Below, in pieces: positions 4,295 through 22,697 of a stretch of 64,000 bases of DNA. The notes below the pieces were generated by a model, which saw only the letters and a program-made list of their open reading frames with translations, ran no database searches and was not told where the DNA came from. Source of the DNA: Microvirga terrae (GTDB lineage: Bacteria > Pseudomonadota > Alphaproteobacteria > Rhizobiales > Beijerinckiaceae). The position numbers were made by a program, and so were the translations under genes. The stretch's first letter is position 1. Each line of letters begins with the position of its first letter. The stretch lies in contig NZ_CP102845.1 of NCBI RefSeq assembly GCF_013307435.2, forward strand, positions 1,054,001 to 1,118,000. The letters run 5' to 3'.

Positions 4295-4459
4295 GTGGAT
4301 CTGACGATTGGAACGTTGAAACGATGTCGTCGGATCTTACTTCTGAAGGCCTACGACAGTGTCGTTGAAACACGCGATTCGATCGGTCTGTATCTGACCT
4401 TTTGCAATACCCGGAGGCCTCATTGGAGCCTCGACCGGAGGACACCCGTTCAGGCTTAA
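4295..4459 (+). pseudogene. IS3-family transposase OrfB, C-terminal fragment
   Basis: Only the last 50 or so codons survive. The peptide LKAYDSVVETRDSIGLYLTF followed by CNTRRPHWSLDRRTP is the typical C-terminal end of IS3-family OrfB integrases (usual form AYDSVSEAR..IGRYL.FYN.RRPHSSLD..TP). The DDE catalytic core and OrfA are absent, so this is a dead remnant. It shows that the interval between the debranching enzyme and the flavin oxidoreductase was once occupied by an insertion sequence. Confidence 0.8.
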
Positions 4460-4629
4460 TCAAGCGGCTCCCGCAACGCGCGGCAGCGTACCCCCGGCAT
4501 ACGCTCCACTTAGCAAACCAAAACCGCTGTTCAAACAAACGGAGCCACCTAACAACCTCACGACAGAGGGCTTTAGGGTCATTGTGTTCCTTACGAAGAT
4601 ACGATCATCTGCAACCGAAGAGGCAGCTC

Positions 4630-7190: not shown

Positions 7191-7447
7191 GGCAGCCCTC
7201 CTTCGGTTCTTGTCCTGTCTTGTCGGAAACGATGCTGAGATTGTGTGGTTCCGGGGAAGCATGCCCGCTTCGGAGAGAAATTGGTGCATCTCAGTGTCAT
7301 TGATGAAGAGCTTGCAACCTGACGCTGATCGCAACTTCAAGAGTGCGCTTCGCTCCCCGTGTCGGCATCCCATAAAGTGGCTGCATTTAGGTGTTTATAG
7401 AAATCGAACACCACTCGTCGGATGGCTCAGATTACGGGACCCGGAGA

Positions 7448-7705
7448 ATGCAGCTCAGCGAGACGGCCTGTGAGATTCTGGATCTTTTCCGCGAGACACA
7501 CCGCAAGCCCGGCGCGCGCATGATAATGGCAACGTTGGAGGCGCGCTTCGGTACGGATCCCGCTGTTGCAGTGTCTGTTTCCGAGTTGACCCACCTCGGT
7601 TACGTGACCGCGCCCGACGCCGGGACAATCGAACTGACGGCCCGCGGCTTCGACGCGGTACAAAGCGGCGATTATCGGGACAACCCAAATAATGGCAGGA
7701 CCTGA
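7448..7705 (+). CDS. Small predicted winged-helix-like protein, paralogue of 17181-17426
   Basis: The product of about 85 residues begins MQLSETACEILDLFRETHRK. It aligns almost without gaps to the 81-residue protein encoded at 17181-17426 on the other strand, sharing CEILDLFRETHR.PGAR, RFGTDPAVAV and the ending ELTA.GFDA. The pattern helix, helix, L..LGYVTAPDAGTIELTARG resembles a winged-helix fold with a beta wing, which is an inference. The frame opens at 7391, but the internal ATG at 7448 matches the start of the paralogue and has GGAG just upstream. Function unknown. Confidence 0.65.
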   Translation: MQLSETACEILDLFRETHRKPGARMIMATLEARFGTDPAVAVSVSELTHLGYVTAPDAGTIELTARGFDAVQSGDYRDNPNNGRT

Positions 7706-7736: not shown

Positions 7737-8020
7737 TTAGCTTGCCTTGGCCTCATCTTCGAACTCGGGCTCATCCGTGTCGAAGAGGTCTGTGGCGTCG
7801 ACAAAGTAGGGTCCGACCTTTGGATCAACGCTTTCCAGCGCCTCGATCGTCTCAACCATGCCTTTCTCGATGGCCAGCATCGGCGCGGTGAAGCCCGGCC
7901 GGATGCGCTGGAACGATTGTCCCCAGCCGAGAGGACCGCAACACCAACCGGTGATGTGCGGCTTGTTGAGAGGGATGTACCAGGTTGGGCGGCCCCCATG
8001 AGGTGGTCTGGGATCAATGT
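7737..8020 (-). pseudogene. Unidentified coding remnant
   Basis: On the minus strand one frame reads GGRPTWYIPLNKPHITGWCC, GPLGWGQSFQRIRPGFTAPM and LAIEKGMVETIEALESVDPK, ending in a very acidic tail (DTDEPEFEDEAKAS) at a TAA at 7737-7739. Its amino-acid composition looks like real protein rather than a shadow, and it competes with a less convincing plus-strand frame. The frame runs upstream without a clear start into DNA that borders the IS3 relic. I do not recognise the family. It is either the 3' end of a disrupted gene or a short gene of about 47 residues starting at an internal Met. Confidence 0.35.
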
Positions 8021-8042
8021 TAGCGCATGATCGGACGTGGCG

Positions 8043-8356
8043 CTAAGGCCGGGGTGACCGGCGGAGCTGGTTCAGACTGCGCAGCCGGCCAGAGCACCGC
8101 CTCTGGGGCGGGCGCTTGTAGCCCAGCGATGAGTGTGTTCGGATGGTGTTGTAATGGCGCCTCCAGCTTTCGATCACGATCTGATCCTCCTTAAGCGTGT
8201 AGCAGATTTCGTCATTGAGCAGTTCGTCCCGCAGCTGACCTCCTTCACGCCGACCTGCCGGATCGCCTCGGTGACTGTCCGTCCCTGTGCCGTCAGAAAA
8301 TCCACCTGCCGGAGCCTCGCTACGATTTCCTCAGCCGCGTGTCTATTCTTGCTCAT
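8043..8356 (-). pseudogene. IS3-family element with large internal deletion
   Basis: The OrfA start MSKNRHAAEEIVARLRQVDF and following TAQGRTVTEAIRQVG are present from 8356, then break off. Directly downstream, in another frame, is the far C-terminus of OrfB: YTLKEDQIVIESWRRHYNTI, RTHSSLGYKRPPQ. About 1 kb that should lie between (the rest of OrfA and the whole DDE core) is missing, with the junction near 8225. This is an internally deleted, non-functional copy whose left boundary truncates the adenylate cyclase gene. Confidence 0.85.
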
Positions 8357-8939
8357 TCTCTTTCGTTCTCCACTCGGCTCGAAGGCCATACATCAGGGAG
8401 GACCACTTCTCAGGGGGCAGACCAAAGGCTCGGATTGCTTCCTCTATATTCTTGACGTTCTGCTCCGCGAGATCACTGAAGTTCAGCGGAACACTCATGC
8501 GCACGTACTCATAAGCAGCCTCTGAGAGACAGATGCCACCTGGATCTGCAAGGCTTTGCAGGCGAGCGGCGATATTTACGCCGTCTCCAAGCAGGTCGCC
8601 GTTCCGCACCATTACATCGCCGACGTGCACCCCGATCCGAAAACGCAGGGTATGTTCCTTGGGGAGATCTTGGTTCGCCTGAAAAAGTGCATGCTGCACG
8701 TCTATGGCACACTGAACGGCATCCACGGCACTGGGGAACTCGCCCAAAACACTTTCACCAGCGGCGTTCGCGATTCGTCCTCCGTGGTCTGCAATGAGAC
8801 GGTCCATGATCTGACGGTGGGCAGTCAGGGTACGGAGCGTTCCAACCTCATCCAGGCTCATAAGGCGCGAATAACCAGCCACGTCAGCGGCAAAAATCGC
8901 CACCAGCCGTCGCTCAATCTTATGCTCCTGCGGACCCAC
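8343..8939 (-). CDS. Class III adenylate/guanylate cyclase, truncated after the catalytic domain
   Basis: The 198-residue product is essentially one class III nucleotidyl cyclase domain. It starts with RRLVAIFAADVAGYSRLM (first metal-binding Asp) and includes GDLLGDGVNIAARLQSLADP, which contains the transition-state Asn and Arg. The second metal site, normally Asp in AGDS, reads AGES here, so an Asp-to-Glu change affects a catalytic ligand. Full-length relatives continue with a TPR-type sensor or regulatory region to about 550-600 residues. Here the frame runs out into the 5' end of the deleted IS3 element, which supplies the stop. It could be a minimal cyclase or an inactive remnant; disruption by the insertion is clear. 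Confidence 0.8.
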   Translation of the reverse strand: MGPQEHKIERRLVAIFAADVAGYSRLMSLDEVGTLRTLTAHRQIMDRLIADHGGRIANAAGESVLGEFPSAVDAVQCAIDVQHALFQANQDLPKEHTLRFRIGVHVGDVMVRNGDLLGDGVNIAARLQSLADPGGICLSEAAYEYVRMSVPLNFSDLAEQNVKNIEEAIRAFGLPPEKWSSLMYGLRAEWRTKENEQE

Positions 8940-9107: not shown

Positions 9108-9264
9108 CCCTCGATTGGCGACGACCTTCCGGGCAGACCGGGCTCTTCCTCAGGGACAGCCCGTAGGAACATCATCCCGGCCCTTGTCATTCAGTTCAAT
9201 GCCGTGGGCCTTCACAGATCAGTACGTTTTACTGCCCGCGATTATTTGAACAGGGGGGCTCATC

Positions 9265-9752
9265 ATGAGTGCGAACGGACTCGATGTCTTCGACAAGACC
9301 CTTCAGATCACCCATATCTGGCTCAACGAGATTACTGGGCTCGTGGGGCCCGACAAGCAGGTTGCCTGGCCGTGCTGGGCGGAGTGCTGCGAGCCGTGCG
9401 CGATCGTATTCCGCTGGAGCTCGCCGTCCATCTCGGAGCAGAACTGCCGATTTTAGTGCGCGGAATTTACTACGATCAATGGCAGCCCGAGGTGCAACCC
9501 GAGCGCTATCGCTCCGAAGACGAGTTCCTCACACGTGTTTCCGAGAACATCGGGCCCGTTCGGCCCGTCAATCCTCGTGATGCCGCACAAACCGTATTCA
9601 GTGTGCTGTCCTATCATGTTTCGGAAGGTCAGCTTGGAAAAGTGCGGGATGCCCTTCCCGAGGATGTCCGAGCGATTTGGATCCATGATCGCAGTTCGGG
9701 AGAACAGAATTACGATCCGACACTGCTACAGCCTGCCACGGCGCAGCCCTAG
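9265..9752 (+). pseudogene. DUF2267 family protein with a single-base frameshift
   Basis: The ATG at 9265 follows AGGGGGG and begins MSANGLDVFDKTLQITHIWL, then INEITGLVGPDKQVAW in outline. After the Trp codon at 9367-9369 the homology moves to the next frame: VLGGVLRAVRDRIPLELAVH, LGAELPILVRGIYYDQWQPE, and on to a stop at 9750-9752. Only two bases separate the halves where three are needed, so one base has been lost around 9370-9371. Together the halves make a DUF2267 protein of about 160 residues, a family found beside stress genes, without known biochemical function. Either a true pseudogene or an assembly error. Confidence 0.8.
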
Positions 9753-10118
9753 CAAGCCGCTAAGCTGCGGACATGACGGCTCAATACAGGAGTTCCTAAC
9801 AGGTATTCCCGTGAAAGCAGAGTGGCACAACCGAGACGCGGCGGATTACGACTTGGGTCCGAGCGGGCGAGATTGCGGGCCCTGAAGAGAACACCTGGTT
9901 GAAGAGGAAACTCTCAATTATTCGGCTGAGCGACACTACGGTCAGGGTTCTGCAGGCCTGGAGCCGTTGCAGAGTGATCGCTAGGCCTCTGCGATTGGTC
10001 GGGAGACACGGAGGGAGACTCGCCCAACAAGACGCTCGTCGTGGCGTAAAGGGGCGTCGAAGCGGCATCGTCTCATGACCTTGCATCCTGCGCGCCGCCG
10101 GCTTGCCGCCGTCACTCC
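9753..10118. other. Non-coding stretch
   Basis: Open frames here are short, mutually overlapping and carry no recognisable motif. I see no RNA gene and no transposase remnant that I can defend. Confidence 0.35.
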
Positions 10119-10775
10119 ATGGGCGGCAGGACCGGAGCGGAAGAGGGTAGCAAAGGGGTAAACGAGTCTGGGTTTGAAGCTGTGTTCACACGTGTGGAGA
10201 CTAAGTTGGAATTCCGCGTCCACTATCTCCTGCCGAAGAACTGCGGCATGTCATCGGTAGTCGTCGAGGCCGGCACGCGCGAGGAGGCCGAATTCGTCGC
10301 TGCTGTCCAGTATGATTTCCCGTCAGGCACCAGGGTTCTTGACGCTAATCCGTACAACATCTTTGGGCTCGCCCCAACTGAGCCAAGGTTTGGTCTCTAT
10401 TGGGAGGTTCGGAGACGGATCGAGCAGGGCTATTACGACGAGTGGCCCTTGGCGCCTGAGGAGCGCTCTCGTCGCAGGCGTCAGTTCTTCAAGGAAGTCG
10501 CCGCGATTTTCGGAACCAGGAAAGGGCACGAGCACCTGTTCGACACGGCGGAGCGGCTGGCGCGCCAGTTCCGGCTCGCCGGCAAGACAACCATTTCCTG
10601 CAACATCACCGCGATCGTGGACCAGCATCCTTTGATCAACCTGTTAGACTGGTATCAGCAGCTAAAGCTTGTTGCCGACAACGTGGCGAAAGCGCCGACC
10701 CGCAGGAATCCGAGGGAGGTGGTGACGCCGGTGGACAACCGCGTCGGCTCCCGCGTTCTCAGGGAAAACAGATAG
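10119..10775 (+). CDS. Hypothetical protein, 218 aa
   Basis: The composition (acidic and aromatic residues spread evenly, no stop-rich shadows) supports real coding. The protein includes RVHYLLPKNCGMSSVVVEAG, RFGLYWEVRRRIEQGYYDEW and CNITAIVDQHPLINLLDWYQ. No signal peptide or membrane segment is visible, so it is probably cytoplasmic. No family is recognised. The annotated ATG has no good ribosome binding site, and the first 20 residues look unlike the rest, so the true start may be further inside. It is isolated: no operon partner within 190 bases. Confidence 0.55.
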   Translation: MGGRTGAEEGSKGVNESGFEAVFTRVETKLEFRVHYLLPKNCGMSSVVVEAGTREEAEFVAAVQYDFPSGTRVLDANPYNIFGLAPTEPRFGLYWEVRRRIEQGYYDEWPLAPEERSRRRRQFFKEVAAIFGTRKGHEHLFDTAERLARQFRLAGKTTISCNITAIVDQHPLINLLDWYQQLKLVADNVAKAPTRRNPREVVTPVDNRVGSRVLRENR

Positions 10776-10848
10776 CATTCTGGGGCGAAAACCAGAGGGG
10801 GTTGTCGGCCGAAGCGTCCCGGTGCTCATGAAAGGCGTTCAAGATCAC

Positions 10849-10912
10849 CTGAAACTCTGCTCACGCTGGCGCGAAATCGCTGCTTACCATCCTCTGAAAT
10901 CTGTGCTCACGA
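10849..10912. repeat. Three imperfect 18-bp direct repeats, possible IS21-type end
   Basis: The motifs CTGAAACTCTGCTCACG, CGAAATCGCTGCTTACC and CTGAAATCTGTGCTCACG occur in the same orientation with starts about 22 bases apart. Multiple terminal repeats of this kind and wording resemble the transposase-binding ends of IS21-family elements, but no istA or istB gene follows. Called as a probable solo end. Confidence 0.4.
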
Positions 10913-10965
10913 TATGGTGGAATTAGTGATCAGAAGGATCGAGGATCGCACCCACGGAGGCGATC

Positions 10966-11595
10966 TTGTCGCCTGAATGGATCTCGGCGCTGGCCAACCT
11001 CATGACAGGCCTGGCGGCCGTCGTCGCCGGCTGGGCCGGGGTCCGCGGGCTCAATGCCTGGCGGACCGAGATGGTCGGCCGGCGCAAGACTGAGCTCGCC
11101 GAGGAGGTGCTAGCGGGGTTCTACCGGGCCAGGGACATCCTAACATGGGCGCGCTTTCCCGCCCCAGATGACAACGACGGTGGGGAGGATGATCGCCCTA
11201 GAACGGGACCGAAGGACGAGGAGCTTGAACGAGGCGAAATATTCACGCCCGTTGACCGCCTGACCAAGGAGAGCCAAGTGTTTTCCGAGCTCCAAGCGAG
11301 TCGGTACCGCTTCATGGCCTATTTTGGGGAGGAAGCCGCCCGGCCCTTCGAGGAGATTCGGGCCATTCACAGCGAGGTCATCGACTCGGCCCACAACCTG
11401 ATCCGCACCTACGGCCAGGAGCCAACGGGCTCGGAGGAAGCGAGGCGCAACCAATGGGAAGCGGCGATTGGCTGGGGCGAAGGGGACAGTGACACTCTCA
11501 GGAGGCGGCTTGATCTGGCGGTGAAGGCCATTGAGCAGACTTGCCGACCCCTGATCGAGGAGCGCCATAGCACGCGCCGCAATGGTCCCGTTTGA
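10966..11595 (+). CDS. Hypothetical membrane-anchored protein, 209 aa
   Basis: Translation is taken from a TTG because it follows GGAGG at good spacing and there is no competing ATG before the hydrophobic N-terminus. Residues 5-26 (ISALANLMTGLAAVVAGWAG) form a single membrane helix, followed by an amphipathic, charged cytoplasmic region of about 180 residues with predicted helices (RRKTELAEEVLAGFYRARDI; RFMAYFGEEAARPFEEIRAI). This layout (short N-terminal anchor, long helical tail) is known from several uncharacterised bacterial families. No catalytic motif is seen. It is followed 70 bases later by a converging gene. Confidence 0.7.
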   Translation: MSPEWISALANLMTGLAAVVAGWAGVRGLNAWRTEMVGRRKTELAEEVLAGFYRARDILTWARFPAPDDNDGGEDDRPRTGPKDEELERGEIFTPVDRLTKESQVFSELQASRYRFMAYFGEEAARPFEEIRAIHSEVIDSAHNLIRTYGQEPTGSEEARRNQWEAAIGWGEGDSDTLRRRLDLAVKAIEQTCRPLIEERHSTRRNGPV

Positions 11596-11665
11596 GGCCT
11601 TTGGACATTTTCATAAGGGCCTGGCAATTGTGCCTGTGTGATTAGCTGGGGCAAGCTGGCGTTCA

Positions 11666-13372
11666 TCAGCCTCGCGCTCTCTGCTCCCTTGTCGTGGGCG
11701 GCGGTACAGGTGCATTTGAGAGAACGATGTGGATCTGAGCTACCGCCGCCGCGCCTTCACCAATTGCCGCGCCGACGCGCTTAACTGACCCCGCCCGAAC
11801 ATCACCGACCGCGAACACATTGGCGACTTCCGCTTCCAGCGCAAAGCGGCGTCTTGGGCCGCATTCTTCCATCATGCCGGTGGCCGGTAGAGCCGCACCT
11901 GTGCGAACAAAGCCGTTGGCGTCCAGGCCCACGCCGCAGCCCTTGAGCCAGCCCGTTGCGGGATCCGCGCCGATGAAGATGAAAACGTTGCGGATCGGCT
12001 TCTCCGTCTCCGCGCCGCTAACGCGGTTGCGCCACCAGACGTGCTCAAGCTGCCCCTCCGGCGAACCCGAGAGGGCGGTGATCTCGGTTTCGGTCAGCAC
12101 TTCGATGTTGTCCGCAGCCGCAATCCTGTCGATCAGATATTGCGACATGCTCTCGGCCAGACTGGGCCCACGGACCAATATCCACACCTTCGCGGCAAAG
12201 TCCCTCAGAAACACCGCCGCTTGCCCGGCAGAGTTGCCGCCGCCCACAAGGGCAACCTCCTCGTTCCGGCACAGGCGCGCTTCAATGGGTGAGGCCCAGT
12301 ACCACACGCCGCGCCCCTCGAACTCCTCCAGGCGAGGAATATCCGGCCGCCGATAACGGGCGCCCGAGGCTACAACCACCGTGGAGCCTTTGACTCGCCG
12401 GCCGTCAGCGAGTTGTATCCCATACGGCATTTGCGAGCAATCGAGGCCGACGGCTTCGGCCGGGATCACCATCTGGGCGCCAAATTTCTGCGCCTGGACG
12501 AAAGCCCGCGCCGTAAGCTCCCGGCCGGGGATGCCGGTGGGAAAGCCAAGATAGTTCTCGATCCGGGCGCTCTCGCCTGCTTGGCCGCCAAAAGCAACGG
12601 CATCCAGGACGATGACCGACAACCCCTCCGACGCGGCGTAAACTGCCGTCGAGAGACCAGCAGGCCCCGCTCCGATGATGGCAACGTCATAGGCTCGATC
12701 CGGCCCATCGACGGGCACCATGCCGAGCGCCTGCGCCAGAGCGCGCTCGGTCGGGTTCTTGAGAATTGTCCCCTTGGGACACACGGCGAGGGGTAGATCC
12801 TTCGTGTCCGGCGCATAGCTCTCGATGAGCGTCGCCGCGTCACGGTCGCGGGCGGGATCGAGCACCTGGCATGGATAGCCATTGCGGGCCATGAAGCCTT
12901 GCAGACGGACCACGTCGGGATGGGTTTCATGACCGATCAGGACCGGGCCGCCTGCACCCGTCTCAATCAGCACGACGCGCCTGAGAATGAGCGCCCGCAT
13001 GATCCTGTCGCCCAGTGCGGGTTCGGCGATCATCAAGGCCCGTAGGTTTTCGGGCGGAATGAGCTGCGCCTCCACATCGTCAATGGCATGGACATCGACC
13101 AGCGCTGGCTGGCCTGACAACTGCCCCACCTCGGCGACGAAGTCGCCGGGTCCCAGCTCGACAATCGGGGACAGACGCCCCCAAGGGTCCCATTGGGCGA
13201 CCCTGACCGAGCCGGTGATGAGGACGAACATGCCCGGAGCAACATCGCCGGTGACAAAGAGCGGCTCACCTGCCGCATGGCGTCGGATCTCGCCGAAGCG
13301 ACGCAGGCGGCCGATGTCCGTAGTCCCAAATTTCGGAAACATCTGCTCGTTGCGGGGATCAATGGCTGCCAT
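11666..13372 (-). CDS. Cyclic-nucleotide-binding domain fused to thioredoxin-reductase-like flavoprotein (no CxxC)
   Basis: A protein of about 568 residues in three parts. Residues about 10-130 form a cNMP-binding beta roll (LFVTGDVAPGMFVLITGSVR; PGDFVAEVGQLSGQPALVDV). A thioredoxin/glutaredoxin-like linker follows (VLIGHETHPDVVRLQGFMAR). The C-terminal half is a TrxR-type flavoprotein with AIIGAGPAGLSTAVYAASEG for FAD, VALVGGGNSAGQAAVFLRDF for NAD(P)H, and the FAD-closing VFAVGDVRAGSVKRVGAAIG. Where TrxR has its redox CxxC (CATCDG) this protein reads ASPIEARLC, so disulfide reductase activity is unlikely. Start at 13372 is preferred; the open frame extends to 13423 with a non-typical leader. 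It may link a cyclic nucleotide to redox chemistry. Confidence 0.85.
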   Translation of the reverse strand: MAAIDPRNEQMFPKFGTTDIGRLRRFGEIRRHAAGEPLFVTGDVAPGMFVLITGSVRVAQWDPWGRLSPIVELGPGDFVAEVGQLSGQPALVDVHAIDDVEAQLIPPENLRALMIAEPALGDRIMRALILRRVVLIETGAGGPVLIGHETHPDVVRLQGFMARNGYPCQVLDPARDRDAATLIESYAPDTKDLPLAVCPKGTILKNPTERALAQALGMVPVDGPDRAYDVAIIGAGPAGLSTAVYAASEGLSVIVLDAVAFGGQAGESARIENYLGFPTGIPGRELTARAFVQAQKFGAQMVIPAEAVGLDCSQMPYGIQLADGRRVKGSTVVVASGARYRRPDIPRLEEFEGRGVWYWASPIEARLCRNEEVALVGGGNSAGQAAVFLRDFAAKVWILVRGPSLAESMSQYLIDRIAAADNIEVLTETEITALSGSPEGQLEHVWWRNRVSGAETEKPIRNVFIFIGADPATGWLKGCGVGLDANGFVRTGAALPATGMMEECGPRRRFALEAEVANVFAVGDVRAGSVKRVGAAIGEGAAAVAQIHIVLSNAPVPPPTTREQRARG

Positions 13373-13446
13373 GGGAAACCTTGCTTTTTCACAGTACGAG
13401 ATGATCGGGCCGGGTGGCCGCACTGAAATTCAGGAGCTGCTCCGGC

Positions 13447-14025
13447 CTAGTCGGCAATCCCTCGGGCCTGATCCTGCTCGGTGGCATCCTTCCTGTCCTG
13501 GTCGCGCACGAGCCAATGGACCGAGCCGAGTGCCAGGATAGCCGCGGCCAGCCCGACGATGGTGAGCGGGTCGGTCTTGCTCGCATCCAGGATGATGAAT
13601 TTACGCACCAGCGCCAGCAGGGCAATCAGCACCACTGTGCGCACCTGCACGATGCTTTCCTTGCGGTGAAGGATGCTGATGATCGAATGGTTGAACTCCA
13701 GGGCAATCAGCACCGTGAAGATCATGCCAAAGACCCCCTGGAACACGCCCGTCTCCGCCGGGTCGAGAAGCCCAGATAGCAGCAGCATGAGGATGCGGAA
13801 GCCCAGGTGGATCATTGCGGCCGCGATCACCAGCCCGATAAGGCTGGTTAGCACCAGCGAGACGACCTGCTCGAAACGCTCGTAGGTGCTCAGGATGGGC
13901 CAAGCCTCACGGGTCTCGCGAAGGGCGCGGTCCATGGCCCTCGCGGGCCGGCCGGTTCCCATCGTGGAGCGGGGATCGTCTCGCTCCGTCCGGGGGTGGT
14001 CTCCCTCGTCCGATAGTTGCCTCAT
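13447..14025 (-). CDS. PsiE-type membrane protein (phosphate-starvation-inducible family)
   Basis: The protein has a charged N-terminus (MRQLSDEGDHPRTERDD), then about four membrane segments: VVSLVLTSLIGLVIAAAMIH, LMLLLSGLLDP.., VFGMIFTVLIALEFNHSI, VRTVVLIALLALVRKFIIL and a last one near VGLAAAILALGSVHWLV. The motif FTVLIALEFNHSI..IL.....I.VRTVVLIALLA.VRKFIILD is the signature of the PsiE family. The function is unknown, but psiE is a regular member of heat-resistance islands. The open frame extends to 14193 inside the clp gene; 14025 is chosen because the extra residues are a shadow. It lies just downstream of the Clp gene in the same direction. Confidence 0.85.
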   Translation of the reverse strand: MRQLSDEGDHPRTERDDPRSTMGTGRPARAMDRALRETREAWPILSTYERFEQVVSLVLTSLIGLVIAAAMIHLGFRILMLLLSGLLDPAETGVFQGVFGMIFTVLIALEFNHSIISILHRKESIVQVRTVVLIALLALVRKFIILDASKTDPLTIVGLAAAILALGSVHWLVRDQDRKDATEQDQARGIAD

Positions 14026-14089
14026 GTGTGATCTGCCGGACTTAGGTGCTTGCGCCGCCGCGCGTGCTGCCTGGTGCGCCTCCTTGTCC

Positions 14090-16954
14090 TCACTCGGCGG
14101 CCGTCCTGCTGTCGCCGGCTCCGCGCTGGGCGTCCCGGTCCAGCTCGACCGCATCACGGTGGTCATCGGTCGCGCCCGCGGCCTTTGTCGCACCCTCTGC
14201 CTTGGGCTGCGGCTCCAGCACTACCCTCTGCTGGTCTCCGTCCCAACGTGCGCTCACCCGGTCACCTTCCTGAACCTCGTTTGCCAGCATTGCGCGGGCA
14301 AGCTGGGTCTCCAGCTCGGAGCGAATGAGGCGCCGCAGCTCGCGGGCTCCGAACTCCGGCCGGAAGCCGGCGGCCGCCAAGTGGTCGACAAGGCTGCCGT
14401 CGATATCAAGCTCGACGCCTTGGCCATGGGCGGTCCGCCTGACGCGCTCCAGCTGAAGCTCGACGATGGAGCGGATCTCGCTCCGCGCCAGGGCATGGAA
14501 GACGATGATCTCGTCGATGCGGTTGATGAACTCCGGCCGGAAGTGGCCGCGCAGCACGTCCATCAGCTCGCGCTTCAGACGGGCCTGATCGTCCTCGGCC
14601 GTGCCGCGCAGGTTGAGGTGGCGCTGGATGATGTCGGAGCCCAGGTTCGACGTGGCGATCAGGATCGTGTTGGTGAAGTCGACGACCCGTCCCTTGCCGT
14701 CGGTCAACCGCCCATCGTCGAACACCTGCAGCAGCACGTTGTAGACATCCGGATGGGCCTTCTCAATCTCGTCGAGAAGCACGACGGAATAGGGCCGCCG
14801 CCGCACGCGCTCGGTCAGCTGTCCGCCTTCCTCGTAGCCGACATACCCAGGAGGCGCACCGATGAGGCGGGCGACCGCGTGGCGTTCCATGTACTCCGAC
14901 ATGTCGAGGCGGATCATCGCGTCCTCCTCGCCGAAGACGGTTTCGGCAAGAGCCTTGGCGAGTTCCGTCTTGCCGACGCCGGTGGGGCCGAGGAACAGGA
15001 AGGTCGCGATGGGACGGCGCCCCTCCCGCAGGCCAGCGCGCGCCAGGCGCACGGCGTCGCTGACCGCCCTGACTGCCTCCTCCTGACCGATCACGCGCTG
15101 GTGCAGGCGCTCTTCCATCTTCACGAGGCGCTGGCGCTCCTCGGTTGTGAGTTCGTTGACCGGCACGCCGGTGAGCTTGGACACCACCTGTGCGATATGC
15201 TCTGTGCGCACCTCGGTCGAGGCCGAGCCGCGTTCACGCCGCCACCGTTCGTTTGCGCCCTGCAGATCCTTGTTGCGGGCATCGTGCCGGGCCTGGATTT
15301 CGGAGGCGCGGTCGAATTGCTTGCGGGAGGAGGCGTAGTCCTGCTCGCGCTTGAGCTGGCGCACCTCGGCCTCCATTTCCTGGACGTCCACAGGCCGGGC
15401 GGTTGCCGAGATCTTTACGCGCGCAGCGGCTTGGTCGATCAGGTCGATGGCCTTGTCAGGCAGGAAGCGCCCGGTGATGTAGCGGTCGGACAGTTCCGCC
15501 GCCGCGATGATGGCCTCGTCCGTGATCGTTACCTTGTGGTGTGCCTCCAGGGTATCCCGTAGACCGCGCAGGATCATGATGGTCTGGGCAACGGTCGGCT
15601 CGGGCACGAAGACCGGCTGGAAGCGGCGCTCCAGGGCGGCATCCTTTTCGATGTACTTCTGATACTCGTTGAGCGTCGTTGCGCCGATCAGGTTGAGCTC
15701 GCCGCGGGCAAGCGCCGGCTTGAACACGTTGGCGATGTCGAGCCCGCCTTCGCCGCCGCCCTGGCCGGCCCCCACGATGGTGTGGATCTCGTCGATGAAC
15801 AGGACCAGCTCGTCCTCGCGCTCGGTGACCTCCTTGAGGATCTGCTGAACGCGTTCCTCAAACTCGCCCCGATACTTGGAGCCGGCCACCATGGAGTTGA
15901 TGGACAGCTCCACGAGGCGCTTGTCGCGCAGGCTCTCCGGCACTTCGCCGCCAACGATGCGCTGGGCAAGACCCTCGACGATGGCTGTCTTGCCGACACC
16001 CGGCTCGCCGATGAGGACCGGGTTGTTCTTCTTGCGCCGGGCCAGCACCTCGATGGCGGTCTCGATCTCCTTGGCGCGGCCGATCACCGGATCGAGCTTG
16101 CCCTCGCGGGCGAGCTTAGTGAGATCGCGCGAGTATTTGTCGAGATTGGGCGTGTTGGTGGGCGTATCGACCCGTCCTTCCTCGGCGCCGCGGCCGACGA
16201 CCTTGACGACCTGCTGGCGGATGGCCTGAGGGGTGAGGCCATAGCGGTTAAGGACATCGGGTCCGATGCCTTCCCCCTCCTCGGCCAAGCCGATGAGCAG
16301 GTGCTCGGGTCCGACATAGGAGTGGCCGAACTCGCCGGAGACGGAGAAGGCCCGGGAGAGAGCGCTCTTCACCCGGGGCGAGACGCCGATCTCGCCGCCT
16401 TCCTCTGGGTTGAAGTCGCCCCGGGGGCTTTCCTGGACGATCTGGTTGCGCAGGTCATCGAGCGAGACCTTGAACTGGTCGAGGATGGTGCGGACGACGT
16501 CACTTTCGGTCAGAGCGAGCAGGAGATGTTCGGTGTCGACCTCGCGGCGGCCGAAGTCGCCAGCCCGTCGTGCGGCTGATTGGAGGATCTCCTCAGCATG
16601 CTCGCTCAGACGGTCCGCCATGCCTGCTGCCGCGCCGCGGCCGCGGGTGCGTCCACGCCCGGACCGGACCGGAATGGGCGTGCCGCCATCCCCGGTGTCG
16701 GAAGGCTCATCGGCCAGTCTCCCCACGCTGCCGCGCGGGCTCTCGCCGACGACGTCGCCACCGAAGAAGTCGTCGAACAGGCTGCCGCGCCCGCCGAAGA
16801 GGGACTCCAGCGGCGAACTCGGCCGCTGCTGCCGCGCCAAACGCCGGTAATCGACGTCACAGAGCTCCATGGTCTCGCGCTGGCCGTTGCTGATCACCTG
16901 CGCTCGAACGGTCGCAGGCCGGACACCACAGATGTCACACAATCCGTCTGCCAT
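14090..16954 (-). CDS. ClpG/ClpK-like AAA+ disaggregase with N-terminal zinc-finger
   Basis: A 954-residue double-AAA+ Hsp100. Residues 1-45 carry C6, C9 and C32 ([21 protein letters not shown]), a McsA/ClpE-like metal-binding start also found in ClpG/ClpK. A Gly/Arg linker leads to the Clp-N double repeat (about 112-255). AAA1 has GEPGVGKT at 316-323 and [13 protein letters not shown]; a short middle domain follows ([15 protein letters not shown]). AAA2 has [16 protein letters not shown] and [15 protein letters not shown]. Between SNLGSDIIQ and [10 protein letters not shown] there is no IGF/VGF loop needed for ClpP docking, so it probably works as a stand-alone disaggregase. A well-placed GGAGG precedes the ATG. 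It is probably co-transcribed with the PsiE-type gene. Confidence 0.92.
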
Positions 16955-17180
16955 GGCATGCCTCCATGCTGGCTATCCCACGTCGCGGACGGGCGTTCTG
17001 TCATTTCAGCAGACGCTCGCCGCGGCACACCGCTTCGGCGCGATTTGTGGAGGGTAACAGTTGCGAGGGCCTGTAAGCATACCGGTCGATCCCTGAGGGA
17101 AGGTACGTGGCTGGAACCAAACAGCGTGGGCCGACCTCGATCAGCCCACCCTTACATAACAGAGCAGCCGATGCAGGTGG

Positions 17181-17426
17181 TCAGTCGTCTTCCAGGTGGT
17201 AACTACGGCCCTGGATCGCATCAAAGCCCTTGGCGGTCAGTTCGACCGTCTCGGCGTCAGGGGTTATGAGAAAGCCTGCGTCCCTCAGCTCCGCGATGGC
17301 CACCGCGACCGCGGGGTCCGTGCCGAAGCGGTAATCGAGCGTGGTAATCATGATCCGGGCACCGGGCCGCCGGTGGGTCTCGCGAAACAGGTCCAGGATC
17401 TCGCAGGCGATCTCGCTGAGGTGCAT
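17181..17426 (-). CDS. Small predicted winged-helix-like protein, paralogue of 7448-7705
   Basis: The 81-residue product starts MHLSEIACEILDLFRETHRR and continues GARIMITTLDYRFGTDPAVA, then LRDAGFLITPDAETVELTAK. It is the sister of the protein at 7448-7705 (well over half of residues identical by eye). The spacing of helices followed by a possible wing suggests nucleic-acid binding, an inference. It lies immediately upstream of the clp gene on the same strand, with about 225 bases between, and could belong to that transcription unit. No family name known to me. Confidence 0.65.
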   Translation of the reverse strand: MHLSEIACEILDLFRETHRRPGARIMITTLDYRFGTDPAVAVAIAELRDAGFLITPDAETVELTAKGFDAIQGRSYHLEDD

Positions 17427-17464
17427 TCGTCCGAATCCTTCTGGCTATGGTCACGGACAACGTG

Positions 17465-17737
17465 TCAGCCATTATCTGGCTCCGCTTGGTTCAGGGACCG
17501 TATCCGCGAGGAAAGGCCCAAGTCTGTCCCGTCCGCGAGTTGGGCCGCCTCCTCAAGGGCATGGTTCCAGACCGCCCGTGCCTCCCTCGTGCGGCGAAGA
17601 AGGGCTGAGACGTCGACAGGGCCGGGATGCGTCCCGGTCCATGCTGGCGGATCGATGGCGGGGAACGACTCCAGGCTGGCTTCGTCCGCCGGGTCGCTGT
17701 CATCGGGTTTCGGTTCGTTGGTTTGCATGGTGCTCAC
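17465..17737 (-). CDS. Small acidic protein with SFPAIDPPAWT motif (90 aa)
   Basis: The N-terminal half is an acidic stretch (NEPKPDDSDPADEASLESFP) leading into SFPAIDPPAWTGTHPGP, a motif recurring in many short hypothetical proteins of proteobacteria (usually SFPASDPPAWT). The C-terminal half is helical (LLRRTREARAVWNHALEEAA). No enzyme signature; probably cytoplasmic. It lies between the paralogue above and the divergent Hsp20 gene. A Met at residue 4 is an alternative start. Confidence 0.65.
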   Translation of the reverse strand: MSTMQTNEPKPDDSDPADEASLESFPAIDPPAWTGTHPGPVDVSALLRRTREARAVWNHALEEAAQLADGTDLGLSSRIRSLNQAEPDNG

Positions 17738-18025
17738 CTTTCAATCCGCTGTCAGCTCTGCCGGGACAGAACCGACACCATCTCTCATCGACCGGTCCAG
17801 CCGTGTTGAGCCCTGATGCTGCACCGGTTGACCTTCAGGGCGAACGCCTCCATCGGAAGCGTGCCCGTGGTATCGATTTGGATTGATGCGTTTCGCAATC
17901 AAGAACCAAATGGGCTGCCGATGCATTGACGAAGCTGCATGCTCCAATCGGTCTTGTCCCCGGAGCGTCCGCGACCCTGACGCGGATGAACAGACCCCGG
18001 GTCCGGACCACAAGCTAAGGTATGC

Positions 18026-18430
18026 GTGGCCATGCGAGATCCGGCAGACTGGATGCTCTCGGAAGCAATTGAGGCGCTTGCCCGTGCCGAGCGCCTGCAC
18101 CGACAGATGTTCCAACCGCCTTCGGCGATGCGCCGCGCAGCTTGGGAGCCCCCCATTGATGTGCTTGAGACCGAGCAGGAAGTTCTCATCCTCATTGCTC
18201 TGCCCGGCGTGGCGCCGGACCAGGTCGAGACGGTGATCGAGGACGGAACCCTCGTGGTCGCCGGCCGCCGCGTTCTGCCGCCGCAACTGCGCACCGCCGT
18301 GATCCACCGGCTGGAGCTGCCGCAGGGCCGGTTCGAGCGGCGCATCCCGCTGCCGCCAGGTCGGTATGACGCCGTCCGGCGTGCCGCCGGAGACGGATGT
18401 CTGGTTATCAGCCTCCGCAAAGCGCTTTGA
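18026..18430 (+). CDS. Small heat shock protein, Hsp20/alpha-crystallin family
   Basis: A 134-residue chaperone with an N-terminal amphipathic arm (DWMLSEAIEALARAERLHRQ) and an alpha-crystallin domain from about residue 40. The domain shows PPIDVLETEQEVLILIALPG, TLVVAGRR and LPQGRFERRIPLPPGRYDA, the usual Hsp20 beta strands. The canonical A-x-x-x-n-G-v-L reads ....GDGCLVISL. sHsps bind unfolding proteins without ATP and hand them to disaggregases. Only 12 bases separate it from lon, so the two are an operon, which fits a stress-induced quality-control unit. Start is GTG at 18026 (AAGG upstream) or ATG two codons later. Confidence 0.9.
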   Translation: MAMRDPADWMLSEAIEALARAERLHRQMFQPPSAMRRAAWEPPIDVLETEQEVLILIALPGVAPDQVETVIEDGTLVVAGRRVLPPQLRTAVIHRLELPQGRFERRIPLPPGRYDAVRRAAGDGCLVISLRKAL

Positions 18431-18442
18431 GGAGCATCCGTC

Positions 18443-20854
18443 ATGATCGTCTCACATGATATTCCGCGCGCGGCCGAGGACGGCACAAGCCCTGGTTCGG
18501 ACAACTCCGCGAAGGCTCTTCCGCCGGATGGCCTTCTCATCGTACCCGTGCGCAACACGGTCCTGTTCCCAGGAACAGTGTTCCCCATTGCGCTCGGCCG
18601 TGAGCGCTCCATCGCCGCGGCCCAGCAGGCGGTGAGGGAGGAGCGTCAGATCGGCCTCCTGATGCAGCGGGACGCGGAGCAGGCCGACCCGGCCGCGGTT
18701 GATTTGCACAGAACCGGCACCGTCGCCAACATCCTGCGCTATGTGAATGCGCCTGACGGCACGCACCATGTCGTCCTCCAGGGCGAGCAGCGCTTCCGGG
18801 TCACCGAGTTCGTGAAGGAGCGGCCGTTCATCGTGGCGCGGGTTCTGCCGATTGAGGAGCCGGGAATCCTAACACCGGACATTGAGGCCCGCTTTCTTCA
18901 CCTCCGGCAGCAGGCACTTGAGGCGCTGCAGCTCCTACCGCAGGTGCCACAGGAGCTTGTTGGAACTGTGCAGGCCGCCGCGACGCCTGGGACTTTGGCA
19001 GACCTCGTTGCGGCTTATCTCGATGTCGGTGCTGACCAGAAGCAGGAGCTTCTGGAAACCATTGATCTCACCGCGCGGCTCGATAAGGTCTCCCGCCTGC
19101 TGGCCGAACGGATCGAGGTCCTGCGCCTGACGCAGGAGATCGGCCGTCAGACCCGGGCCACCTTGGACGAACGCCAGCGCGAGGTAATCCTGCGCGAGCA
19201 GATGGCGGCGATTCAGCGCCAGCTGGGCGAAGGCGACGGGCGCGCCCAGGAGGTTCAGGAACTCACCGAGAAGATTGCGAAAGCCGCCATGCCGCCGGAG
19301 GTTGAGGAGCAGGCCCGCCGCGAGCTGCACCGCTATGAGCGCATGCCGGAGGGCGCCATGGAGGCCGGGATGATCCGGACCTACCTCGATTGGCTCGTCG
19401 AACTGCCTTGGGCCCTGCCCGAGGAGAAACCCATCGATATCGTGGAGGCGCGCCGCATTCTCGACGAGGACCATTTCGGGCTTGAGAAGATCAAGCAGCG
19501 CATCATCGAATATCTCGCCGTGCGCAAGCTCGCCCCGAACGGCAAGGCGCCGATCCTGTGCTTTGCTGGCCCGCCCGGCGTCGGCAAGACGTCCCTTGGG
19601 CAGTCGATTGCCCGCGCCATGGGGCGGCCCTTCATGCGGGTTAGCCTCGGCGGCGTCCACGACGAGGCGGAGATCCGCGGCCACAGGCGCACCTATGTGG
19701 GCGCTTTGCCGGGCAACATCATCCAGGCGATCAGGAAGGCTGGCGCACGCGATTGCGTGATGATGCTGGACGAAATCGACAAGATGGGACGCGGCGTCCA
19801 GGGGGATCCCTCCGCGGCCATGCTGGAGGTGCTCGATCCTGAGCAGAACGCCACCTTCCGCGACAACTATCTGGGCGTTCCGTTCGACCTCTCGCGCGTG
19901 GTGTTCATCGCCACCGCCAACATGCTCGACACCATTCCGGGTCCCCTGCGCGACCGCATGGAGATCATCACCCTGGCTGGCTACACTGAGGACGAGAAGC
20001 TTCAGATTGCCCGGCGCTACTTGGTTCGGCGGCAGCTGGAGGCGAACGGACTTAAGGCCGAGCAGGCCGAGACCAGCGACGAGGCCTTGCGCCGGATCAT
20101 CCGGGATTACACCCGCGAGGCCGGCGTCCGGAACCTGGAGCGCGAGATCGGCCGGGCCCTGCGCCACGCTGCCGTGCGGATCGCCGAGGGCAGCGCCGAG
20201 CACGTGCGCATCGACGCCGGGGATCTCGCCGCAATCCTCGGTCCGGTCCGCTTTGAGGACGAGGTGGCGATGCGTACCAGCGTGCCAGGGGTCGCCACAG
20301 GATTGGCGTGGACTCCGGTGGGCGGCGACATCCTGTTTATTGAGGCCAGCCGTGCTCCAGGCAAGGGCGGCCTTATTCTCACGGGGCAGCTCGGCGATGT
20401 CATGCGTGAGAGCGCACAGGCGGCGATGACCCTGGTGAAGAGCCGCGCCGCTTCATTCGGCATCGATCCCGCCCTGTTCGGGAAGAGCGACGTCCACATC
20501 CACGTTCCCGCGGGAGCCACTCCGAAGGATGGCCCAAGTGCGGGCGTGGCCATGTTCACGGCGCTGGTCTCGCTTCTGACGGGCCGAACGGTGCGCAGCG
20601 ACACGGCCATGACGGGGGAGATCAGCCTGCGCGGGCTTGTCCTGCCGGTGGGCGGGATCAAGGAAAAGGTCACGGCGGCCGCGCGGGCGGGGCTCACCCG
20701 GGTGATGCTGCCGTCCCGCAATCGGCGCGACTTCGAGGACATCCCCGAGGATACGCGGGCCCGGCTTGAATTCATTTGGCTGGAGCGGGTCGACGAAGCC
20801 ATCGCGTCTGCCCTGGAGGACAAGCCGACGAATGTGCCGGATGCTGCCGAGTAG
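18443..20854 (+). CDS. lon: ATP-dependent protease Lon
   Basis: An 803-residue LonA protease. The LonN substrate-recognition domain (LLIVPVRNTVLFPGTVFPIA) spans about 25-215. A coiled region follows, then the AAA+ module with GPPGVGKTSLGQSIARAMGR and VMMLDEIDKMGRG. The C-terminal protease domain contains the catalytic Ser in KDGPSAGVAMFTAL and the catalytic Lys in GGIKEKVTAAARAG. It degrades damaged and regulatory proteins. The length and all catalytic residues are normal. Its place directly behind an Hsp20 gene in an island suggests it is an accessory, stress-linked copy; alphaproteobacteria normally carry another lon next to clpX, outside this window. Confidence 0.95.
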   Translation: MIVSHDIPRAAEDGTSPGSDNSAKALPPDGLLIVPVRNTVLFPGTVFPIALGRERSIAAAQQAVREERQIGLLMQRDAEQADPAAVDLHRTGTVANILRYVNAPDGTHHVVLQGEQRFRVTEFVKERPFIVARVLPIEEPGILTPDIEARFLHLRQQALEALQLLPQVPQELVGTVQAAATPGTLADLVAAYLDVGADQKQELLETIDLTARLDKVSRLLAERIEVLRLTQEIGRQTRATLDERQREVILREQMAAIQRQLGEGDGRAQEVQELTEKIAKAAMPPEVEEQARRELHRYERMPEGAMEAGMIRTYLDWLVELPWALPEEKPIDIVEARRILDEDHFGLEKIKQRIIEYLAVRKLAPNGKAPILCFAGPPGVGKTSLGQSIARAMGRPFMRVSLGGVHDEAEIRGHRRTYVGALPGNIIQAIRKAGARDCVMMLDEIDKMGRGVQGDPSAAMLEVLDPEQNATFRDNYLGVPFDLSRVVFIATANMLDTIPGPLRDRMEIITLAGYTEDEKLQIARRYLVRRQLEANGLKAEQAETSDEALRRIIRDYTREAGVRNLEREIGRALRHAAVRIAEGSAEHVRIDAGDLAAILGPVRFEDEVAMRTSVPGVATGLAWTPVGGDILFIEASRAPGKGGLILTGQLGDVMRESAQAAMTLVKSRAASFGIDPALFGKSDVHIHVPAGATPKDGPSAGVAMFTALVSLLTGRTVRSDTAMTGEISLRGLVLPVGGIKEKVTAAARAGLTRVMLPSRNRRDFEDIPEDTRARLEFIWLERVDEAIASALEDKPTNVPDAAE

Positions 20855-20878
20855 CCGTGTCATGCCGGACATCAAGCC

Positions 20879-20907
20879 CCCTCCTGTGTTGACGCGCTTC
20901 AGGAGGG
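20879..20907 (+). terminator. Hairpin downstream of lon, possible terminator
   Basis: CCCTCCTG and CAGGAGGG form a perfect 8-bp stem around a 13-base loop, 25 bases after the lon stop codon. There is no T-run, so it is either a non-canonical terminator or an mRNA 3' stabiliser. Confidence 0.4.
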
Positions 20908-21398
20908 AGGCCACGCATGGCGAAAGCACGAAAGTTTTATTGTAGCCTGCTCCGATGATCGTTGCCTCAACGGGCGTGCCGACATCGACACCGTGATCCT
21001 GATCATGCGCCCGGGCCGGAAGGCTCAGGCCGTGAAGATCGCCGGGCCGTTGGCGTAGGTCAGCAATGCGGACCTCGTGCAAGCCGCAGCCCATTGGTCA
21101 TCACTTTCCGACGCAGGAGCAAAATAGCGGGACCTCAGGAAGTTTCGTAAGGTCTGGAACTGGCACACAGCGGACGAAGAGCAAATGTCTGAACGTGCGC
21201 GGGGAGCGGACCTTTATACCGCGGTCCTTTACGGCTGCCTTTGGGTCACACGCACACAATGGGACAACGGATCGGTTTCGAAATGAAGAGCACTGACGTT
21301 CATTCAAACCTTCAGTGGGAATGATCAGTTTTCAAAACTGCTAGCTGGCCTCGTGTATGTGTTCTGTGTTCTCAAGAGAAAACCGAATCAAGAGGTAG
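20908..21398. other. Non-coding stretch after lon
   Basis: Short open frames only. A 34-codon piece around 20958-21057 looks like a gene fragment but is not recognisable. Base composition becomes visibly richer in A+T toward 21390, where AAGAGGTAG provides the ribosome binding site of the next gene. Confidence 0.35.
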
Positions 21399-22013
21399 AT
21401 GGAGCGAGTGGCTATGGACGATGAGGATGAGATAGCCAAAGAGCTTCGGACCTACGTTGATCAACTTCGTCCATTCCAGGGCGCTCGATCAACCAAGAGG
21501 ATCCATCGGGATCGTGATGAACTTGATGATGTGGAACGAACGCTGACCGCTGCTGGGATCCAGTTCATTGACCTACGGCACAGAGGCAACCAGGACCCGC
21601 CCGATTGCGAGGCCATTATCCGAGGAGTCCGCTGCGGCATTGAGGTGACCGAATTAGTTCACGAACGGGCGTTGAGGGCTTCGATTAAGTCGATCAAGAC
21701 CAAGAAAGGTTTTATGCACCACCACGAGTGGACCCGTGAGGAGTTTCTAACTGAGCTTCGCGGGAGGATCGAAGAGAAGGACAATCCAACAGACCTCAAG
21801 GATGGTCCTTACAAGCGTTATTTCCTCGTGATCTGGACGGGCGAAATGCACCTCACCAAAGAAGCGATTCGGGATTTTCTAGAAGGGGTGAGCTTCGCAT
21901 GTTCTCTTATTACAGATGCTTTCATTGCACTTGATTACCACCCCGGTTCAGCGGACCGATATCCGGCCATACCTATCAGCATCGTGAAAAGAGCGGCCAA
22001 ACCTGAGCAGTAG
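21399..22013 (+). CDS. Hypothetical protein with possible PD-(D/E)xK nuclease-like core
   Basis: A 204-residue cytoplasmic protein in AT-richer DNA. The central segment FIDLRHRGNQDPPDCEAIIR followed by GVRCGIEVTELV has the spacing of a PD-(D/E)xK fold: a PD-like Asp on one strand and (D/E)-x-T/K on the next (IEVTE). Similar PD...GIEVTEL patterns occur in small defence- or mobile-element-linked proteins. The Lys is replaced by Thr, as in some divergent members, so activity cannot be assumed. C-terminal half: RYFLVIWTGEMHLTKEAIRD. No partner gene adjoins it. Start ATG follows AGAGGT. Assignment to the nuclease fold is tentative. Confidence 0.6.
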   Translation: MERVAMDDEDEIAKELRTYVDQLRPFQGARSTKRIHRDRDELDDVERTLTAAGIQFIDLRHRGNQDPPDCEAIIRGVRCGIEVTELVHERALRASIKSIKTKKGFMHHHEWTREEFLTELRGRIEEKDNPTDLKDGPYKRYFLVIWTGEMHLTKEAIRDFLEGVSFACSLITDAFIALDYHPGSADRYPAIPISIVKRAAKPEQ

Positions 22014-22607
22014 GTATTCAGTTCGCCTGTGACTGCTCTGGCGTCGATCGTCGAAGCACCCGCCTCCGAAACGTCGAGAACGCCAACTGGCAACCACAAC
22101 GACATCGTAAGTATCAAAACGAGCGGATCCAACGCCAAGCTTTAACTGGAAACCAGAGCTACGCTTCGCTGTTGGGGCCGCCTCGCGATGCATGCTGAGT
22201 TTCCTAGCTATTTCAGCGATTTGTGGGGGAGTTGTGGCGGAGAGGGGAGGTCCGAACTCCGACACAGTTGTCCGCAATTCGGACAGGATACGAGATTCAG
22301 AGATTCTGTCGCCAGTGAGGCGATCTCTAAGAACTAATCATTCTCGGAACTACTAAGAGCGGATGTCACATAATTTCACAGCGGCCAAGTAGAGGTTGCT
22401 TAGCATCAACTCTCTTGTTTGATCGCCATCGACAATGCAGACCCTCCTCCAGCAGCATGAGGTGCATTCCCGCCTATGGTTAACAAACCGAATGCAACTG
22501 AGGGTAGCTTATAATCGCCAGTCCGGTACAAATGTGGGCTGGATTGAGGGCTATTAATTTATAAAAGGGCTGAATTCTCAGATTTTCAGTTACTTACTCT
22601 GATAAAA
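22014..22607. other. AT-rich non-coding strip at the 3' side of tRNA-Ser
   Basis: About 590 bases with no credible gene, and clearly richer in A+T than the flanks, especially 22310-22607. It directly adjoins the 3' end of the tRNA-Ser gene, the usual side for integration of mobile elements. No integrase gene or second copy of the tRNA end was found in the window. Confidence 0.5.
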
Positions 22608-22697
22608 TGGCGGAGGGAGCGGGATTCGAACCCGCGATACGGTTTCCCGTATACACACTTTCCAGGCGTGCGCCTTCAACCACTCGGCCACCCCTCC
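22608..22697 (-). tRNA. tRNA-Ser (anticodon GGA)
   Basis: Read on the minus strand, the gene starts GGAGGGGTGGCCGAGTGG and ends with TCCCTCC, discriminator G and encoded CCA. The acceptor stem GGAGGGG/TCCCTCC pairs, the T arm GGGTTCGAATCCC is canonical, and the long variable arm (TACGGGAAACCGTA) is that of a class II tRNA. The anticodon loop reads CCTGGAAAG, giving GGA, which decodes UCC and UCU. It marks the border between the IS-rich left half and the core-genome right half of the window. Confidence 0.97.

Follow-up and report, generated by a model that had tools for sequence, protein, structure and literature searches.

The DNA analysed here, called the window below, is a 64-kb stretch of the Microvirga terrae genome (positions 1,054,001 to 1,118,000 of the main contig, C1; the genome measures 6.13 Mb and is held in four contigs). 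It carries a block of protein quality-control genes centred on clpG, which encodes an Hsp100 of the ClpG/ClpK family. Its companions encode a PsiE-family membrane protein, a flavoprotein that joins a cyclic nucleotide monophosphate (cNMP)-binding domain to a part resembling thioredoxin reductase (TrxR; gene trxR), a small heat-shock protein (sHsp) of the Hsp20 family and a second Lon protease (Table 1). All the genes named in the original prediction, which had been made from the sequence alone, are intact open reading frames (ORFs) in the ORF listing of the window. The Hsp100, the PsiE-type protein, Hsp20, Lon, the flavoprotein and two small proteins lie where it had put them, and the first five have the Pfam domains claimed; the small proteins (81 and 90 residues) have no Pfam match. 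PADLOC, run on the window, returned matches for the Hsp100 and Lon only, taken here as generic AAA- and Lon-domain matches. The clpG and hsp20 genes diverge from points 1.1 kb apart, hsp20 being paired with lon. The true start of trxR probably lies near 13372; homologs of the flavoprotein in the genus have 567-569 residues. The psiE start is uncertain and may perhaps lie near 14025 (192 residues), in which case psiE and clpG would not overlap; PsiE homologs in the genus loci are called at 164-235 residues.

Table 1. Features of the ClpG block and its border (window coordinates)
Feature	Position	Strand	Basis or occurrence
218-residue protein, no assigned function, outer block member	10119..10775	+	in L291, L295, L296 among 17 genus ClpG loci
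209-residue protein, no assigned function, convergent with trxR	10966..11595	+	beside trxR in 6/6 other-genome island copies
cNMP-binding and TrxR-like flavoprotein without redox CxxC	11666..13423	-	Pfam cNMP_binding and Pyr_redox_2
PsiE-family membrane protein	13447..14193	-	Pfam PsiE, E 5.5e-29
ClpG/ClpK-type Hsp100 (predicted disaggregase)	14090..16954	-	Pfam Clp_N, AAA, AAA_2, ClpB_D2-small; NCBIfam; tree; motifs
81-residue probable winged-helix regulator, immediately upstream of clpG	17181..17426	-	predicted model, element order
90-residue protein, no assigned function	17465..17737	-	in L291, L292, L298 among 17 genus loci
Hsp20 without C-terminal tail, 12 bp ahead of lon	18026..18430	+	Pfam HSP20 (alpha-crystallin domain), E 2.4e-7
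Second Lon protease, full-length	18443..20854	+	Pfam Lon domains; TIGR00763
tRNA-Ser(GGA), right border of inserted zone	22608..22697	-	ARAGORN

The Hsp100 is a member of the ClpG/ClpK family, and disaggregase activity is predicted for it. The NCBIfam ClpK model matches it over residues 1-946 with 1551.5 bits, the ClpG, ClpB and ClpA models reaching 1357.7, 992.3 and 742.5 bits. The first two scores fall short of the curated cutoff of 1900 that both models carry; as these are narrow "exception" models, this bars the use of the NCBIfam names but not membership of the wider family. An E. coli plasmid ClpK found in a search of plasmid records is 71.5% identical to the window protein over 96% of its length. 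In a 50-row tree obtained by a quick method, the Hsp100 falls in a 38-row ClpG clade (approximate likelihood-ratio support, SH-aLRT, of 100) and in a 30-row group that includes E. coli ClpK (support 98), apart from the ClpC-like and ClpB-like rows; ClpA is present there as at best one long-branch row. Besides the Hsp100, the window's own genome supplied L003, which sorts among the ClpB-like rows, and L005, a further Clp whose branch is very long. Both Walker A motifs are present in the protein, as are the pore-loop tyrosines and, near the N-terminus, a CxxC...C finger. It is missing the loop insertion of ClpC-like rows, which we take to be the "ClpP-docking" or IGF loop. The original description of a zinc-finger Hsp100 devoid of that loop is borne out in the (putatively zinc-binding) finger motif and in the absent loop. 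The CxxC...C is kept in 55/55 ClpG rows; in the fourth finger position 34 rows have His and the other 21, which include the window protein, have Asp. The Asp-type rows come from 16 of the 17 genus loci in other genomes, the two copies of the window's own genome, Chthonobacter, Limimaricola and Deinococcus.

The most mundane explanation of the locus would be an ordinary chromosomal unfoldase of ClpC or ClpA type with unrelated neighbours. It can draw on the closest sequences in the PDB, which are ClpC chains (834 bits), no ClpG chain occurring among the 60 matches listed. The tree position, the finger domain, the absent loop insertion and the full-length ClpK match at twice the ClpA score all contradict it, and a search of 397 genomes of the order found such a gene in just 12, counting that of the window; we regard the ClpC/ClpA identity as ruled out and the explanation built on it as extremely improbable. 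The original prediction had staked itself on two outcomes, that the Hsp100 would group with ClpG/ClpK and that its neighbours would recur together: it does, and they do so within the genus.

The search behind the count for the order used E <= 1e-300; diverged or broken copies would escape it. The same search of 385 genomes of the class found clpG in three, again with the window's own genome. A second intact clpG resides in that genome at C2:200151-202949, on a 556-kb contig (L009; 94% identity), and a third, fragmentary one on the main contig at C1:5011657-5012642 (L010); none of the other block genes was found in the 20 kb around either copy. Within Microvirga (48 genomes, E <= 1e-250) clpG is present in 16 genomes, namely the window's own and 15 others carrying 17 loci, all of which were compared over 18-20 kb each. 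Four of the 17 (L291, L292, L295, L296) hold trxR, psiE, clpG, hsp20 and lon together. Two more (L293, L302) hold trxR, psiE and clpG with no lon, the contig of L293 continuing for about 9 kb beyond clpG without one, and L298 combines hsp20-lon with clpG in the absence of trxR-psiE. Similarity to L291 at the DNA level is unbroken from 9126 to 21166 (92%); in L292, L295 and L296 it stops at 20942-20947, and in L292 and L295 extra genes separate clpG from psiE. L298 (G803:C3) also contains a second sHsp gene and, judged by eye from ORF starts, GroES/GroEL-like genes. The 209-residue gene accompanies trxR in L291, L292, L293, L295, L296 and L302; its product has a best Pfam match at chance level (E 0.057), and a Pfam scan of the 218-residue protein up to E 1 gave no match.

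The hsp20-lon pair, which the original prediction had counted in the block, is a separate module. The window Lon scores 911.6 bits against TIGR00763 (cutoff 608.05), has the full set of Lon domains and is 46% identical to the core Lon of the same genome (C1:3074555). Lon of this kind occurs in 39 of the 397 genomes of the order, own included. Twenty loci, mostly the best-scoring of the matches in those 39 genomes, were compared: hsp20 lies directly upstream of lon on the same strand in all 20, and none has a ClpG-level match, L206 having a ClpB-like one. An hsp20 gene adjoining lon has been published for acidophiles (PMC10490939, excerpts). In the window the two genes are probably co-transcribed. 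A shared peculiarity of these Hsp20s is their lack of a tail. The C-terminal I-x-I/V tail drives the assembly of large sHsp oligomers. The motif is found within the last 30 residues in 8/8 sHsp controls of the type found in known heat-resistance islands (tLST, see below); the Lon-linked Hsp20s end 1-6 residues beyond the last strand in 26/26 rows (20 from outside the genus and six from within, counting the window protein, which has a tail of two residues). All 26 share the segment ELPQG[R/H]FxR. We found no published description of this tail-less character in the open-licence literature. Hsp20 may act as a partner of Lon.

The closest solved relatives of the flavoprotein by sequence are thioredoxin reductases; at the site of their redox CxxC, however, the window protein reads W-A-S-P. 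CxxC was seen in 0/40 rows, W-A/T-S-P in 37/40, and the W-x-S-P form in all 120 relatives listed of 7,999 scored in the database; the core reductases of the same genome (L126, L127) carry CATC there. The proposal that thioredoxin is replaced in this block by a TrxR-like fusion is therefore not supported: lacking CxxC in all 40 rows and all 120 listed homologs, the protein is not a thioredoxin substitute by known chemistry, and thioredoxin reduction by the standard mechanism is ruled out. Between its cNMP domain and its reductase part the protein has a middle stretch that aligns with the N-terminal part of proteins from two Burkholderiaceae loci (L020, L022) and contains no conserved cysteine pair. 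We read this middle stretch as having a possible glutaredoxin-like fold; the predicted model of the flavoprotein is poor (mean pLDDT, the predicted local distance difference test, 65.7). A short class III cyclase gene is present at 8343-8939, 2.7 kb from the flavoprotein gene. It was considered as the partner of the cNMP domain and rejected, similar genes occurring at many places on Microvirga plasmids; near ClpG/Hsp100 loci only weak matches to it were seen (28-35% identity; L010, L206, L294).

These observations give some substance to the idea that the block is a chance assembly, in which independently mobile modules (clpG with its small regulator, hsp20-lon and trxR-psiE) gathered at insertion sites and do not cooperate. 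Besides the 20 Lon loci with no ClpG-level gene, TrxR fusions are found away from clpG, and only one of 20 compared TrxR loci (L221) lies near an Hsp100 gene, a ClpB-like one. Of the order's matches from outside the genus, the TrxR fusion in this locus (G167:C22) is the closest (65%); its neighbours are the ClpB-like gene and psiE, hdeD-like and sHsp genes. Nor does module presence track the ClpG tree. The nine-row set that includes the window mixes full-set loci, clpG-only copies (the own copy on C2 and that of G785) and one Chthonobacter copy, and G777 (trxR-psiE-clpG) and G803 (hsp20-lon-clpG) fall outside it; several inner branches of this tree have weak support, and Chthonobacter sits on a long one. 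Such discordance between gene content and tree points to transfer, loss or re-assembly; it speaks equally for the horizontally moving block proposed below, in which transfer and loss would be expected.

What speaks against a chance gathering is that particular allele classes stay linked. Among the 48 genus genomes, 16 have the TrxR fusion, in 22 copies. The island-type copies (86-100% identity) adjoin psiE in 7/7 cases, with clpG no more than about 3 kb away; the remaining 15 (51-56%) all sit on contigs, or in genomes, that lack a clpG match. Lon of the window kind (E <= 1e-245) occurs in 14 of the 48 genomes in 15 copies: the six island-type ones (93-100%) are all inside clpG loci and form a single clade (support 100/100), and the other nine are 80-84% identical, with clpG lying about 23-24 kb away in two cases (G820, G796). 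The linked classes appear in differing surroundings and gene orders. On balance we find the chance assembly unlikely, if still worth keeping in mind.

The right border of the inserted zone is the tRNA-Ser gene. DNA similarity to eight relatives reaches it, ending at 22606-22608 for seven of them and at 22580 for the eighth (the contig of one locus, L285, ends about 430 bases beyond that point), and L291 carries the block at the same tRNA-Ser. Beyond the gene (22608-22697) relatives diverge from the window, and from these sequence comparisons Microvirga may have an insertion hotspot here. The original prediction spoke of IS-rich DNA, that is, rich in insertion sequences. There is indeed an IS3-family fragment near 7982-8424, in the left flank, but the term was overstated: ten flanking and neighbouring ORFs include none over the Pfam cutoff, and the ORF that comes nearest to it, at 7391-7705, has a weak match to HTH_21 (E 0.0059). 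The flank has the look of an eroded insertion zone and is not rich in insertion sequences, and the worn look of the zone beside tRNA-Ser counts in favour of the chance assembly. Matching plasmid records were not found for 20860-22605, and none covers 80% of the block, the near matches shown hitting the clpG part only. A wider stress island taking in an Old Yellow Enzyme (OYE) gene (4402-5742) and a partial DJ-1 gene (29-349) was considered and dropped; OYE relatives near other Hsp100 loci have 27-36% identity only.

We consider it probable that the genes form a stress-tolerance block that is centred on ClpG and moves horizontally, a variant, of Microvirga type, of the kind known as transmissible locus of stress tolerance (tLST) or locus of heat resistance (LHR). 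Several observations weigh against this interpretation. In ten of the 17 genus loci the 18-20 kb compared contain no lon and no island trxR-psiE (one of the ten, L306, has a TrxR-like gene at 40%), so that clpG does not need these genes; the same ten loci count in favour of chance assembly. The recurrences are in related genomes and, these being kin, the allele counts are not independent events. The claim that the set recurs in other alphaproteobacteria holds for genomes of the genus, but among the loci compared the full set is found only in Microvirga, with lon in 0/35 ClpG loci outside. Neither a second copy of the tRNA-Ser end (att), looked for in the window and about 40 kb upstream, nor an integrase among the ORFs scanned was found. 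The 81-residue gene is not beside clpG in ten of the 17 genus loci, including the full-set loci L295 and L296. A search for RNA families around clpG and hsp20 gave one chance match and recognised no RNA thermometer. Finally, an RpoH-type pattern had no match upstream of hsp20 in the window and five genus loci; the scan covered the hsp20 upstream region, that of clpG being aligned, not scanned. The pattern did match in six of 20 outside loci, which is not counted as evidence.

Control of the block may lie with the 81-residue protein, probably a winged-helix regulator. Its gene adjoins clpG in seven of the 17 genus loci (L291, L292, L297, L298, L299, L303, L304) and in L105. In the predicted model (pLDDT 81) the structural elements follow one another as in a winged helix, and one database relative carries the annotation MarR family; Foldseek, queried with the model, returned nothing at E <= 0.001 (best E 0.013), which is why the assignment rests on element order and many weak matches.

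We propose the following division of labour for the ClpG-centred block. By analogy with ClpG of other species, for which heat work is reported (PMC8129007, excerpts), the block would contribute to heat tolerance. ClpG would bind aggregates made by heat or oxidants via its N-terminal finger domain and extract the proteins by threading, so that they can refold independently of DnaK. Whatever is beyond refolding would go to the second Lon and its tail-less Hsp20. A part on the membrane or redox side might fall to PsiE and the flavoprotein, the latter presumably sensing a cyclic nucleotide, and the 81-residue protein would control expression. It is tempting to go further and view the tail-less Hsp20 as a dedicated substrate-delivery partner of the second Lon which, joined to ClpG, lets one mobile block both refold and destroy aggregates, with the flavoprotein setting the balance. 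This extension is a speculative one, and we doubt that it will hold in full. The tail-less Hsp20 and second Lon provide a clean pair for asking whether an sHsp hands substrates directly to a protease.

The block had been proposed to be an alphaproteobacterial counterpart of the LHR islands, also described as the transmissible locus for (protein) quality control (TLQC, TLPQC). This is correct in kind, since a ClpG block with an sHsp, a protease and PsiE is present, but the closest counterpart turns out to be a different and more canonical island, ftsH-clpG-sigma70. Partial tLST clusters in alphaproteobacteria have already been published (PMC8290217, section 8). We found no published treatment of the present gene set in Microvirga in the open-licence literature, judged by title and start of abstract; in the excerpted text of a paper on the genome of a thermotolerant Microvirga, Hsp20 genes are named and no Clp (PMC7022394).

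Set beside the tLST/LHR/TLPQC island of E. coli plasmid NZ_CP061755.1, the window shares the central ClpG (71.5%), an sHsp, PsiE (44.5%), an ATP-dependent protease and the principle of carrying second copies of core quality-control functions. FtsH, cardiolipin synthase, YfdX, HdeD, thioredoxin, KefB, HtpX and DegP were not found beside the window block when E. coli queries were run by tblastn against the window region (L011); Lon, a different Hsp20 and the cNMP/TrxR-like flavoprotein are there instead, and the gene order is reversed. The tLST core order is dna-hsp20-clpG (PMC8290217, excerpts). The window does not follow it, hsp20 being divergent and the 81-residue gene preceding clpG; clpG and an sHsp gene do share one cluster, though the Hsp20 concerned differs in kind from those of tLST. 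The hsp20-lon pair of acidophiles has the same adjacency and is reported without ClpG in the excerpted text of PMC10490939.

Among 35 ClpG loci outside the genus, which may include close kin of one another, six resemble the E. coli island (L112, L014, L015, L016, L017, L021). In 15, ftsH, clpG and a sigma70-type gene stand in a row (Agrobacterium CP129669.1, Paracoccus yeei, Roseomonas gilardii and others); 14 of these also have marR, the contig of L109 ending at ftsH, and most also hold psiE, three sHsp, rhomboid, clpP, trx and kefB-type genes. The representative L137, which supplied part of the queries, reads marR-ftsH-clpG-sigma70-hdeD-...-rhomboid-clpP-trx-kefB over 10001-19483, with psiE and three sHsps; it and the 14 similar loci are found on plasmids and chromosomes. 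This alphaproteobacterial island brings its own sigma70-type and ClpP-type genes beside ClpG. It has in common with the window ClpG (about 73-75%), PsiE (50%), sHsps and a small gene of winged helix-turn-helix type near clpG (MarR there, the 81-residue protein here). It differs in its MarR, FtsH, sigma70-type, HdeD, rhomboid, ClpP-type, thioredoxin and KefB genes and three tailed sHsps, and none of the 15 loci has lon or the cNMP/TrxR-like gene. Three Burkholderiaceae loci (L020, L022, L023) resemble the window in having ClpG (60-61%), TrxR-like (41-42% over 68% of the query), HdeD-like and sHsp genes, and PsiE in L020 and L022; they have no lon, and the TrxR-like proteins of L020 (419 residues) and L022 (413 residues) are without a cNMP domain, that of L023 being a 488-residue ORF.

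Within the genus itself, L292 adds FtsH (65%) and KefB-type (41%) genes to the block, and L298 adds rhomboid (53%) and ClpP-type (65%) genes. As these belong to the canonical islands, the window block looks, from its sequence relationships, like one branch of a set of mix-and-match ClpG islands. This suggests viewing ClpG islands as a family of assemblies, and not as a single cassette, in which the protease, sHsp and redox partners can be swapped; soil bacteria harbour them just as bacteria from food and hospitals do.

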